NCBI RefSeq assembly: GCF_011308835.1
Contig: NZ_JAAOHY010000001.1
Location: 1,178,001 to 1,242,000, forward strand
Length of the DNA stretch: 64,000 nt
Origin: Paracoccus xiamenensis
GTDB lineage: Bacteria; Pseudomonadota; Alphaproteobacteria; Rhodobacterales; Rhodobacteraceae
Direction of reading: 5' to 3'
Below the pieces are notes generated by a model. That model saw nothing but the letters and a program-made list of their open reading frames with translations, was not told where the DNA came from and made no database searches. Positions 16,334-21,983 of the stretch are shown one piece after another; the first letter of the stretch is position 1, and each line of letters opens with the position of its first letter. The translations under genes were made by a program, and so were the position numbers.

Positions 16334-17672
16334 CTAGGCCAATGTGCGTTTCAGGACGGCAGAAAATCGCGGCGCGATCTGGTCACGCAGGCTGTGGCGT
16401 CCGGCCTTCACCACATGCGCACCGGCAGCCCAGACATCGGCAACCTTGACATCGCGCCCGAAGATCCAGCGGTCCAGAAGCGTCGCGCCCGCGCCGTCCA
16501 GCTCTGCCCCGTCGCGCAGGGTGACCAGATCCGCCATCGCCCCGGCGGCGATCCGGCCCGGCTCGGCATCAAGGGCCTGCGTGCCACCTGCCAACGCCGC
16601 GCCGAAGATCCGCATCCCGGTAGAGCCGCCCTCCTCTGCCAGCACATTTCGCGCACGAAGCGTCAGCCGCTGGCCATATTCCAGCACCCGCAGCTCTTCC
16701 GCAGCGTCGATGCGCACGTTCGAATCGGTGCCGATCGCCATTTTGCCGTCCTCTTCCAAAAAAGCCTCTGCCGGAAACAGCCCGTCACCCAAATTCGCCT
16801 CGGTCACCGGACACAGGCCGGCCACCGCACCCGAGGCGGCGACGGCCCGCCGCTCTGCTTCGGTCAAGTGGGTGGCGCGGATCAGGCACCAGCCTGCGTC
16901 GACGGGCAAGTTATCCAGCAACCATGCGACGGGACGCTGACCGGTGAAGGCCAGGCAATCCTCAACCTCCTTCACCTGCTCGGCGATATGGATATGCACG
17001 GCGCGGCCCGGCAGCGAATGGGTCAGAAGGCGCAGTTCATCGGCACTGACCGCGCGCAACGAATGGGGCGCATAGCCGACTCGGTCCTGAAGGCGCGTCA
17101 GGCGGGCATCGCAGGCCCAGATCAGGTTCAGGAAGAAGTCGATATCGTGAAGAATGCGCCGCTGGCCCGCGCCCGAAGGCTGCGGGCCAAAACCGCCATG
17201 GGCATAGAAGAGGGGCAGATGGGTCAGCGCGATACCGGTGACTTCAGCGGCGGCAGGGATGCGGTGCGACAGCTCTGCCGGGTCGGCATAGCGCGCCCCG
17301 TCGCGGTCGTGATGCAGGTAATGGAACTCACCCGCGCGGGTAAACCCGGCCTCCAGCATCTCGATATAGGCCATTTCGGCCAGCACCTGCATATCTTCGG
17401 GTGAGACGGTCAGCGCAAAGCTGATACGTCATCTCGCGCCATGTCCAGAAGCTTTCGCGCCCTGCACCGCGGGTTTCGGTCAGGCCGGAAAATCCGCGTT
17501 GAAAGGCGTGGCTGTGAACGTTCGGCATTCTTGGCACCAGACAATCCGCCCGCATGTCGCCCGGGCAAGGCGTCACGCCGACCTCGACCCTGGCGATGCG
17601 GCCCGCGTCAGGCGGAACCCGCACATCCCGCCGCCATCCTTCTGGCAACAATGCCTGCCTAGCATGGATCAT
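16334..17672 (-). pseudogene. hutF: Formimidoylglutamate deiminase HutF, frameshifted
   Basis: HutF would convert N-formimidoyl-glutamate to N-formyl-glutamate in the five-step histidine pathway. The N-terminal part (MIHARQALLPEGWRRDV, then PNVHSHAFQRGFSG with metal-binding HSH) is read from 17672, and the rest (MAYIEMLEAGFTRAGEFHYLHHD through GTDSNVRIDAAEELRVLEYGQRL) in another frame. The frames join near 17421-17426, where removing one base restores REMTY-SFALTVSPEDMQ. Apart from this one-base shift the protein looks complete. The downstream frame alone (352 codons from 17392) lacks the metal site and is unlikely to be active. Divergent from hutI. Confidence 0.9.
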
Positions 17673-17727
17673 CTCGCCCCCCCTGCATGTGCCGGTGCAA
17701 AAAACCGGCTTCCCAAGTCCATCCCAT

Positions 17728-17741
17728 TATGTATATACATA
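17728..17741. promoter_or_regulatory. Perfect palindrome in the hutF-hutI divergent promoter, probable HutC-type operator
   Basis: TATGTATATACATA is a perfect 14-base palindrome midway between the divergent hutF and hutI starts. It contains TGTATATACA, which resembles operators bound by GntR-family HutC repressors of histidine utilisation. No hutC gene is present in the window. Confidence 0.55.
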
Positions 17742-17774
17742 TTAAGCCAACAAGCAATGGCAGAGGCCGGCCCG

Positions 17775-18964: not shown

Positions 18965-19319
18965 AACTCTGATCCCCGGTCAGATGTCGCTGGACACGCT
19001 GGGATGGGTCTATTGGGACGCGGCCTCGGTCCGGCTGGACAACGCCGCCATGCCCGGCATCGAACGCGCCGCCCGGCGCATCGCCGAGGCCGCCGCGGGC
19101 GAGGAGCCGATTTACGGCGTGAATACTGGCTTTGGAAAGCTGGCCTCGATCCGCATCGCGCCGGCTGATGTCGCACAGCTGCAACGCAACCTCATCATCA
19201 GCCATTGCTGAGGGGTCGGCGCGCCGCTGGCGCCGGAAATCGTGCGGCTGATCATGGTGCTGAAACTCATGTCGCTGGGGCGCGGTGCGTCGGGTATCCG
19301 GCCCGAGGTGGTGGCGCTG
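18957..19319 (+). pseudogene. hutH: Histidine ammonia-lyase HutH, 5' remnant
   Basis: HutH deaminates histidine to urocanate. Only about the first 120 codons remain, of roughly 510 in the family: SLDTLGWVYWDAASVRLD, then EEPIYGVNTGFGKLASIRI. An in-frame TGA at 19209-19211 stands where a second Cys of SHCCGVGAP is expected. After GASGIRPEVVALM the sequence passes directly into HutG. The Ala-Ser-Gly triplet that forms the MIO cofactor lies in the missing part, so no activity is possible. Confidence 0.93.
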
Positions 19320-19983
19320 ATGCAGCCGGTCGAGATCACCGAAGGCAGCAGCGCGCTGGTGCTGGGCCTACCTCATACCGGCACTTGGGTGCCCGATGAC
19401 ATCGCCGCGCAGCTGAACGACGACGGCCGCCTGCTGCGCGACACCGACTGGCATATCGAGGCGCTGTATGACGGGCTGTTCGACGGCAGGACCACCGAGC
19501 GGGCGAGCTTCCACCACTATATCATCGACGCTAATCGCGATCCTTCGGGCGCGTCGCTTTATCCCGGTCAGACGACTACCAGGCTGGTGCCGCTGTCCAA
19601 TTTCGACAACGCCCCGAACTGGCGCGACGGCCACACCCCCGACGCCGCCGAAATCCAACGCCGCCGCGCCGCCTTTCATACCCCCTACCACGTCGCGCTA
19701 TCCGCGCAGAGCGACCGGGTAAAGGCGCCGCGCGGCTATGCAGTGCTGTATGACTGCCACTCGATCCGCTCGGTCGTCCCGTGGCTGTTCGACGGCACAT
19801 TGCCCGATTTCAACATCGGCACCGATCAGGGCCGCACCTGCGCCCCCGCGATCGAAAGCGCGGTGCATGAGGCCTGCATGTCCACGGGTCGCAGCACGGT
19901 GCTGAACGGCCGCTTCCGCGGCGGCTGGACGACCCGACACTATGGCCGCCCGGCAGACGGCGTCCACGCGATCCAGATGGAGC
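19320..19983 (+). pseudogene. hutG: N-formylglutamate deformylase HutG, lacking its C-terminus
   Basis: HutG hydrolyses N-formylglutamate to glutamate and formate, matching a pathway through HutF. The frame starts at ATG 19320 (MQPVEITEGSSALVLGLPHTG) fused to the hutH remnant, and the core is intact (ADVLYDCHSIRS-like AVLYDCHSIRSVVPWLFDG and GGWTTRHYGRP). After HAIQMELA the hutG sequence stops and hutU sequence begins out of frame, so the open frame runs on to 20054 with a meaningless tail. About 40 C-terminal residues are missing compared with the family. A partly active protein is conceivable but doubtful. Confidence 0.85.
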
Positions 19984-21607
19984 TGGCTGACCGAGGCGCC
20001 CTTGCGGATGCCGATGAACAACCTGCATCCCGATGTGGCCGAAAACCCGCATGAGGTGGTTATCTATGGCGGCATCGGCCGGGCGGCGCGCACCTCGGGA
20101 GGATTTTGATGCCATCGTGACGGGCCTCGAAGATCTGGAAGCCGACGAGACGCTGATCGTGCATGGAGGCAAGCCTATTGCCATCATCCGCACCCATACG
20201 GATGCGCCGCGTGTGCTGATCGCCAATTCGAACCTTGTGCCGCATTGGGCGAATTGGGACCATTTCAACGAATTGGGCCGCAAGGGCCTGATGATGTACG
20301 GCCAGATGACCTCCGGGTCCTGGATCTACATTGGCACCCAGGGCATCGTTCAGCGTACCTATGAAACCTTTGTCGAGGCCGGGCGCCAGCATTACGACGG
20401 CGATCTGACCGGCAAATGGATCCTGACCGGCGGCCTGGGCGGAATGGGCGGCGCGCTGCCCTTGGCGGCGGTGATGGCCGGGGCCTGCTGTTTGGCCGTC
20501 GAATGCGACGAGACCCGCGCCGACTTCCGCATCCGCACCCGCTATTGCGACGAAAAGACCCATTCGCTGGACGAGGCGCTGGCAATGATCGACCGCTGGA
20601 CGAAGGCGGACGAGGCGAAATCGGTGGCGCTGATCGGCAATGCCGCCGAGGTCTTCCCCGAAATCCTGCGCCGGATGCAGGCGGGCGAGGCGCTGCCCAA
20701 TGGTCGCCCCGATATCGTCACTGACCAGACCTCGACCCATGATCCGGTCCATGGCTATCTGCCGAAGGGCTGGACCGTCGCCGAATGGCGCGCCAGGCAG
20801 GAAAGCGATCCCAAGGCCGTCGAGGCCGCCGCCCGCGCTTCGATGCGCGATCATGTCGCGGCAATGGTCGGTTTCTGGAACGCGGGCGTGCCGACGCTGG
20901 ATTACGGCAACAATATCCGTCAGGTTGCGCAGGACGAGGGGCTGGAAAACGCCTTTGCCTTCCCGGGCTTCGTGCCCGCCTATATCCGGCCGTTATTCTG
21001 CCGCGGCATCGGTCCCTTCCGCTGGGCGGCGCTGTCGGGCGATCCCGAAGACATTTACAAGACCGACCAGGCGATGAAGGAACTGTTCCCCGAAAACGAA
21101 CACCTCCACCGCTGGCTGGATATGGCGCGCGAACGCATTGCCTTTCAGGGCCTGCCGGCGCGGATGTTCTGGATCGGGTTGGGCGACCGTCACCGCGTCG
21201 GGCTGAAGTTCAACGAGATGGTGGCCTCGGGCGAATTGAAGGCGCCGGTAGTGATCGGGCGCGATCACCTCGACTCTGGCTCTGTCGCCTCGCCCAATCG
21301 CGAGACCGAGGCGATGCGCGATGGCTCTGACGCAGTTTCAGACTGGCCGCTGCTGAACGCGCTGGTGAACACGGCCTCGGGTGCGACCTGGGTCAGCCTG
21401 CATCACGGCGGCGGCGTCGGCATGGGGTTCAGCCAGCATTCCGGCGTGGTGATCTGCGCCGATGGCACGCCAGAGGCCGCCCGCCGGCTGGAACGCGTGC
21501 TGTGGAACGACCCGGCCTCGGGCGTCTGGCGTCATGCCGATGCCGGTTACACCGAGGCGATCGAATGCGCCCGCCAGCGCGGGCTGCGCCTTCCGCGTAT
21601 CCTTTAA
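19984..21607 (+). pseudogene. hutU: Urocanate hydratase HutU, 5' deletion and frameshift
   Basis: HutU adds water to urocanate using NAD as an electrophile. Coding homology begins at WLTEAPLRMPMNNLHPDVAE, so roughly the first 40 residues and the start codon are gone. Near 20094-20096 one extra base breaks the frame between GGIGRAART and EDFDAIV. From there about 500 codons are uninterrupted to 21607, including GQMTSGSWIYIGTQG and the NAD loop GGLGGMGGALP. The long intact part shows the decay is recent, or that the head was lost first. Confidence 0.88.
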
Positions 21608-21983
21608 TGATCGCGCATTACCCGGCCCGCAACCGCCGTTTCACCACCTGGAAGAACGGCGGCGGCGAAACCGCCAAGATCATATGCCAGCCCACAGGCG
21701 CGGGATTTGATGATTTTGACTGGGCATCAGCACAGCACGGGTTGCCGCGTCAGGGCCGTTTTCGATTTTACCAGGCGTGACGCGGTCACTGACCATGCTG
21801 GAAGGCGGCCGGATGCTGCTGCGCCTTGATGGCCTGCAGGTGCTGGAAAGTGCCGACACTGGCCCGGTAGCCTTTCCCGGCGACACGGCTTGCGAGGCAG
21901 AACTGATGGGCGCGGCAAGTGCTGCCCCACTGCCCGAAGCGCGTTATCTGACGTCCCGCGTCTCCAGGCAGAAGGGCCGCTGA
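21607..21983 (+). pseudogene. hutD: HutD family protein, frameshifted and 3' truncated
   Basis: HutD is a cupin-like accessory protein of hut operons with an ill-defined role. The N-terminus (RRFTTWKNGGGETAKI) is clear. One base is missing near 21724, after which the other frame continues with ISTARVAASGPFSILPGVTRSLTMLEGGRMLLRLDG. Homology ends near 21915 (FPGDTACEAELMG) and the last third is absent. Its ATG overlaps the hutU stop (TAATG). Confidence 0.85.

Follow-up and report, generated by a model that had tools for sequence, protein, structure and literature searches.

Does the histidine-utilisation (hut) locus of Paracoccus xiamenensis still encode a working pathway, and where did its genes come from? 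The locus lies in a stretch of 64,000 nucleotides (G000:C10:1178001-1242000, hereafter the window) within a 3.64-Mb assembly with a completeness of 99.98%. The hut remnants span positions 16334-22141 of the window, between clpA and the nap cluster, in the order hutF(-), hutI, hutH, hutG, hutU, hutD, hutC(-). Lesions were called by frame-aware alignment of the assembly sequence to the intact hut loci of Actibacterium and Celeribacter. Every one of the seven remnants bears inactivating lesions. The locus is a real pseudogene cluster of an already known kind, and the cassette was probably acquired horizontally from a lineage resembling Actibacterium, Celeribacter or Salipiger. Its decay has likely lasted only briefly, from the time when histidine use was no longer selected for.

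Lesions in the hut remnants

The loci of Actibacterium naphthalenivorans (L016) and Celeribacter persicus (L015), the nearest named relatives in the trees described below, have the same gene order and strands as the remnants, but all seven genes are open there, whereas they are broken in P. xiamenensis. The hutF remnant (16334..17672, minus strand) carries a single +1 frameshift near 17420, and 304 of 444 aligned residues are identical to Actibacterium HutF. In hutI (17775..18964, plus strand), a -1 frameshift near 17985 is followed by a TAG at 18101; a search with TIGR01224 also showed one TAG. This remnant is identical to Celeribacter HutI at 264 of 393 residues and to the Actibacterium open reading frame (ORF) at 311 of 416. 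Only the first ~123 codons of hutH remain, as a stub (18957..19325, plus strand) with a TGA at 19209. The remainder was removed by a deletion of ~1.16 kb at ~19322-19325, which had been described as interior to hutH but actually starts at codon ~132 (numbered as in the Actibacterium ORF) and extends as far as the start codon of hutG.

The hutG remnant (19320..20006, plus strand) has lost its last ~36 codons and is fused to hutU by a deletion of ~0.2 kb at ~19981-19987, which took the tail of hutG together with the head of hutU. At this junction, the alignments of the two genes share a 7-base overlap, AGCTGGC. The hutU remnant (19981..21607, plus strand) lacks its first ~22 codons and has a +1 frameshift near 20095, while its other 499 codons are open. 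It is identical to Actibacterium HutU at 482 of 540 residues and scores 803 bits against TIGR01228 (cut-off 375). hutD (21607..21917, plus strand; 56 of 103 residues identical to Actibacterium HutD) has a -1 frameshift near 21724, and its last ~80 codons are lost after 21917.

The original prediction, made from the DNA alone, had described six adjacent hut genes in decay. All six are broken, but the count is seven, as the remnant of hutC, which encodes a GntR-type repressor, had been missed. It lies at 21950..22141 on the minus strand and comprises ~64 codons without both ends. Its residues are identical to Actibacterium HutC at 34 of 64 positions (score 175) and to Celeribacter HutC at 26 of 62 (score 121), while 20 base-shuffled sequences scored at most 43 against Celeribacter HutC. 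The nine lesions first proposed, namely shifts in hutF, hutI, hutU and hutD, stops in hutI and hutH, and three deletions, were all recovered against the intact reference loci, a comparison that had itself been suggested as a check.

Four of these nine lesions are one-base shifts, the kind of change expected if the locus were intact in the cell and merely looked broken through sequencing or assembly error. The ~1.16- and ~0.2-kb deletions and the lost hutD end, however, cannot be base-calling errors. Moreover, seven of ten neighbouring proteins tested score over curated cut-offs, and the assembly is nearly complete. Because of the deletions and the intact neighbours, we consider error highly improbable. 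The main lesions are also private to this genome among those searched: a probe of 1 kb spanning both main junctions had matches in 52 of 111 genomes but was unbroken only in its own, and none of the 110 others shared the two junctions.

Origin and age of the cassette

Most of the Paracoccus hut loci examined encode the same enzymes as the remnants but belong to a different lineage, with hutC beside hutF instead of after hutD, and occupy other places in the genome. The proteins differ accordingly in their identities. Among named records, those closest to the window HutU are from Celeribacter, Actibacterium and Salipiger (88-90%), and identity to named Paracoccus loci is 81-85%; across all Paracoccus loci compared, outside congener G008, it is 80-85%. 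HutF and HutI are 62-68% and 67-74% identical to those of the same three genera, and 46-50% and 53-64% identical to those of the examined Paracoccus loci other than G044, a congener with values of 62.5% and 66.9%. The HutH stub shows 71.5-75.6% identity to the three genera, as opposed to 56-65% to Paracoccus loci.

Phylogenetic analyses of HutF, HutI and HutU placed the window consistently. The first tree contained the window and 69 of 86 loci, the other 17 lacking one gene by our ORF rule, and the second contained 32 of these 69. The third included 35 chosen loci with more congeners, used the window proteins as queries and relaxed the ORF overlap rule from 0.85 to 0.75, which admitted G044. 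The window was sister to Actibacterium in all three trees (Shimodaira-Hasegawa-like approximate likelihood ratio test 93; 99/92; 99/91). Both fell, along with Celeribacter, Salipiger and Pseudotabrizicola, in a group that had full support. In approximately unbiased (AU) tests, constraining the window with Paracoccus loci was rejected for seven loci in the second tree (p 1.2e-50) and for 16 loci in the third (p 2.7e-37). By these tests the gene phylogeny conflicts with the genus, though the HutU of G008 signals otherwise. Gene order and the three-protein tree together suggest that the transfer, and its direction into Paracoccus, are likely. DNA resembling hutU also occurs in plasmid records, and 13 of the best 15 come from rhodobacterial genera.

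The Paracoccus loci themselves are scattered across the trees. G044 groups with Pseudotabrizicola, G078 and Paracoccus sp. S-4012 group with Tabrizicola, and G008 stands apart from both; G074, of the same genus, has a HutF, HutI and HutU row identical to that of S-4012. It follows that the genus acquired hut more than once or that its lineages exchanged it.

Several observations weigh against a transfer into P. xiamenensis. No HutU is nearer to that of the window than the one in G008, at 92% and 91.3% identity in two comparisons versus 89.3% for Actibacterium, and the cassette in G044 is intact and matches in gene order and type. HutG separates the groups poorly (61-66% to congeners versus 63-71% to Actibacterium, Celeribacter and Salipiger), and HutD is equally near to G008 (57.7%) and Celeribacter (57.6%). 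The AU groups were defined after the first tree had been seen, and one member of the group of 16, G078, itself clusters with Tabrizicola. The composition of the locus resembles its surroundings, with 65.3% guanine plus cytosine against 63-64% and an ordinary value at third codon positions. Finally, neither a remnant of a mobile element nor a flanking repeat could be recognised among the matches listed, which for repeats covered 20 of 37 families of direct and 25 of 52 families of inverted type.

G008 is also the closest relative found by ClpA (94%). Its hut genes are split and mixed: in the two stretches examined (L107 and L171), hutC-F-I-U-D lie at one place, an Actibacterium-like hutH (80%) with its own hutC lies at a second, and neither stretch has a match to hutG. 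Considering that the nearest HutU and an Actibacterium-like HutH occur in this genome, part of the cassette may predate one recent transfer within the subgroup. Both features, together with the intact cassette in G044, would also be expected if an Actibacterium-type cassette had been present in the ancestor of part of Paracoccus and most lineages had lost or replaced it, with P. xiamenensis the latest to do so. Against such vertical inheritance, the window and G044 are not sisters, and grouping them was rejected (AU p 5.6e-5). G008 also resembles the window far less in HutF (~50%), HutI (~59%), HutC (28%) and the HutH stub (61%). We regard vertical inheritance as unlikely, at perhaps one chance in a handful. 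The locus is dead under transfer and vertical inheritance alike.

Under the transfer that we favour, a transferable hut cassette would first have been gained. Histidine use would then have stopped being selected for, and shifts of one base, nonsense codons and deletions would have accumulated in place without rescue. The age of this decay can be roughly estimated. Taking Actibacterium as sister, we counted replacements unique to the window against those unique to Actibacterium. With Celeribacter as outgroup the counts were 44:30 in HutF, 36:19 in HutI and 25:27 in HutU; with Salipiger they were 44:32, 29:25 and 26:21, and with Pseudotabrizicola 42:31, 26:24 and 25:25. Only one of these nine ratios, HutI 36:19, has a p of 0.03, so that the window shows little excess over its sister lineage. 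The 1,853 codons contain two nonsense codons, from which three simple mutation spectra put neutral substitution at roughly 1.1-1.4%, with a 95% range of 0.13-5.1%. Replacement ratios and nonsense density together suggest that the locus died recently relative to its split from the nearest intact relative. The catabolic cassette was probably caught soon after its death.

Histidine degradation and the ergothioneine cluster

Has the genome retained histidine degradation by other means? Neither hutU (shifted and headless) nor hutI (shifted, with a TAG) is open in the locus. A profile search of the assembly found no second HutH over cut-off: the HutH model returned only the stub, with its one TGA, and a lyase on C19. 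HutI likewise had no match over cut-off elsewhere in the genome, its sole match being the broken locus. A search for a second hut set, which the original prediction had called for, thus yielded no further hutH or hutI, while second copies of hutF and hutG were not searched for.

Two proteins could nevertheless suggest that a second histidine pathway made the broken copy dispensable and that histidine use was kept. One is a urocanase-family protein that exceeds the generic hutU cut-off (703 versus 375 bits), encoded at C10:1304099-1305766, ~106 kb from the hut locus; the other is the C19 protein, a second PF00221 lyase. The urocanase-family gene belongs to an intact four-gene ergothioneine-utilisation cluster outside the window (G000:C10:1300403-1305766; L013:5404-10767). 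Its product scores 1034 on the thiourocanate hydratase model NF058530 (cut-off 930). The three other proteins are all over cut-off as well: a thiohydantoin desulfurase (NF058529, 598 versus 440), the hydantoin-5-propionate amidohydrolase ErtD (NF058538, 752 versus 600) and the N-carbamyl-glutamate amidohydrolase ErtE (NF058540, 583 versus 520). We rejected this protein as a rescue of hutU, as model score and Ert neighbours identify it as a thiourocanate hydratase. A search of 37 genomes of the genus with the hutU model showed a urocanase copy of this second type in P. xiamenensis only; G039, from another family, has a copy that scores similarly to the thiourocanate hydratase.

The C19 lyase (L014:8939-10525, minus strand) scores 219 on the hutH model (cut-off 539), and in place of the Ala-Ser-Gly triad of HutH it shows Ala-Ala and a gap. 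In the HutH family this triad forms the usual cofactor, which a protein without it should be unable to form. Hence an open HutH with the triad was found neither in the stub, which holds the TGA, nor in the C19 lyase. Given these scores, and since no second hutI is present over cut-off, we consider retention of histidine use through redundant genes scarcely credible.

The C19 lyase matches the ergothionase 6s7j (3.3e-34) but matches the probable histidine ammonia-lyase 7tqr better (2.6e-47), and a profile search with the ergothionase model gave no match. It could be an ergothionase, for which we consider it a candidate. The gene adjoins those of a betaine-type ATP-binding cassette transporter (L014:5083-6782 and L001:350-1255, both on the minus strand), whose OsmF-type binding protein scores 471 bits against a cut-off of 400.

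Like the hut locus, the Ert cluster of the same host has a urocanase-family enzyme that the generic model calls hutU, but it is separate and intact, and thiohydantoin and hydantoin steps replace hutI. It is conceivable, though rather doubtful, that the lineage swapped pathways, dropping histidine degradation while gaining a parallel one for ergothioneine, a thio-histidine betaine. The new route would draw on the same enzyme families, through the urocanase relative and the triad-less HutH relative, with the betaine-type transporter as feeder. If so, generic annotation would hide both events by naming the new genes hutU and hutH. Our literature searches found nothing on ergothioneine with thiourocanate hydratase, nor on S-methyl thiourocanate.

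Considering that all hut genes are broken, that no second hutH or hutI was found and that the neighbouring genes are mostly intact, the data are best read as showing that relaxed selection led to loss of the pathway, and the cell is likely unable to use histidine, as predicted from its genes. This much of the original interpretation stands. It also implied that an inherited Paracoccus trait had been lost, which does not, as the hut lineage of the remnants differs from that of most Paracoccus loci examined and the genus has hut only in patches.

Genomic surroundings and hut in the genus

The seven neighbouring proteins that exceed at least one NCBIfam cut-off are ClpA, NapA, NapC/NirT, GlgC, GlgA, GlgX and NirB. 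The left neighbour clpA (13442..15760, plus strand) scores 1116 bits on TIGR02639 (cut-off 993), and napA on the right (23342..25849, plus strand) scores 1546 bits on TIGR01706 (cut-off 931). A Nas-type reductase aligned over its full length, yet stayed under its NCBIfam cut-offs, and the ORF at 12506 and the NapF ORF had no NCBIfam match at an E-value limit of 1e-80. The earlier description of both flanks as intact is therefore supported for the seven Clp, Nap, Glg and NirB proteins over cut-off.

The window clpA shares 84.3% DNA identity with that of P. denitrificans. In all seven Paracoccus neighbourhoods compared (six congeners and P. denitrificans), similarity to the window ends at the clpA stop codon (15760), and the sequence 3' of it differs from genome to genome. 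That the remnants were inserted as a discrete island between clpA and the nap cluster could not be demonstrated: the congeners diverge at the clpA end, and the genes after clpA in G008 sit on other contigs in P. xiamenensis. Just past clpA, at 15838-15892, two perfectly matched 25-bp arms around a loop of 5 bases form an inverted repeat, probably a terminator. Towards the other end of the window, 61591-62558 hold a tRNA-Met gene followed by an ORF that appears integrase-like by eye.

Across the genus, full-length HutU was present in 18 of 36 other genomes, fragmentary in two (G028 and G050) and absent from 16, and HutH over cut-off was present in 11 of 24. In G028 (L207, G028:C1:2240000-2258000), the last 117 residues of hutU and a match to hutD, together at 8061-9016, stand alone within 18 kb, and no hutH was found in this genome. 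This likely represents an independent hut loss. The ORFs beside the leftover seem phage-like by eye. A hutH-like fragment in G009 (29-31% identical, one TAG) was too distant to be accepted as a hutH remnant.

Broken gene sets of this sort are ordinary in bacteria. A precedent for such hut decay is available in the portion of PMC11077982 accessible to us, where Salmonella Paratyphi A, with a decayed hutU, has lost histidine use as a single species; the accessible portions of PMC8640586, PMC3350403 and PMC6137255 contained none. As in P. xiamenensis, histidine use was lost there through a degraded hut gene, but one gene had decayed in Salmonella, compared with seven here, of another lineage than those of most congeners.

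The case of P. xiamenensis is thus instructive but ordinary, and its practical point is an annotation trap. The genome still encodes a Lyase_aromatic protein and another that exceeds the cut-off of the generic hutU model, so that automatic pathway calls may predict a histidine use that it likely lacks. The event itself is better described as the loss of a hut cassette of foreign type, in a genus whose members gain and lose this trait. Within Paracoccus, hut does not count among the core traits: it is accessory and has several origins.

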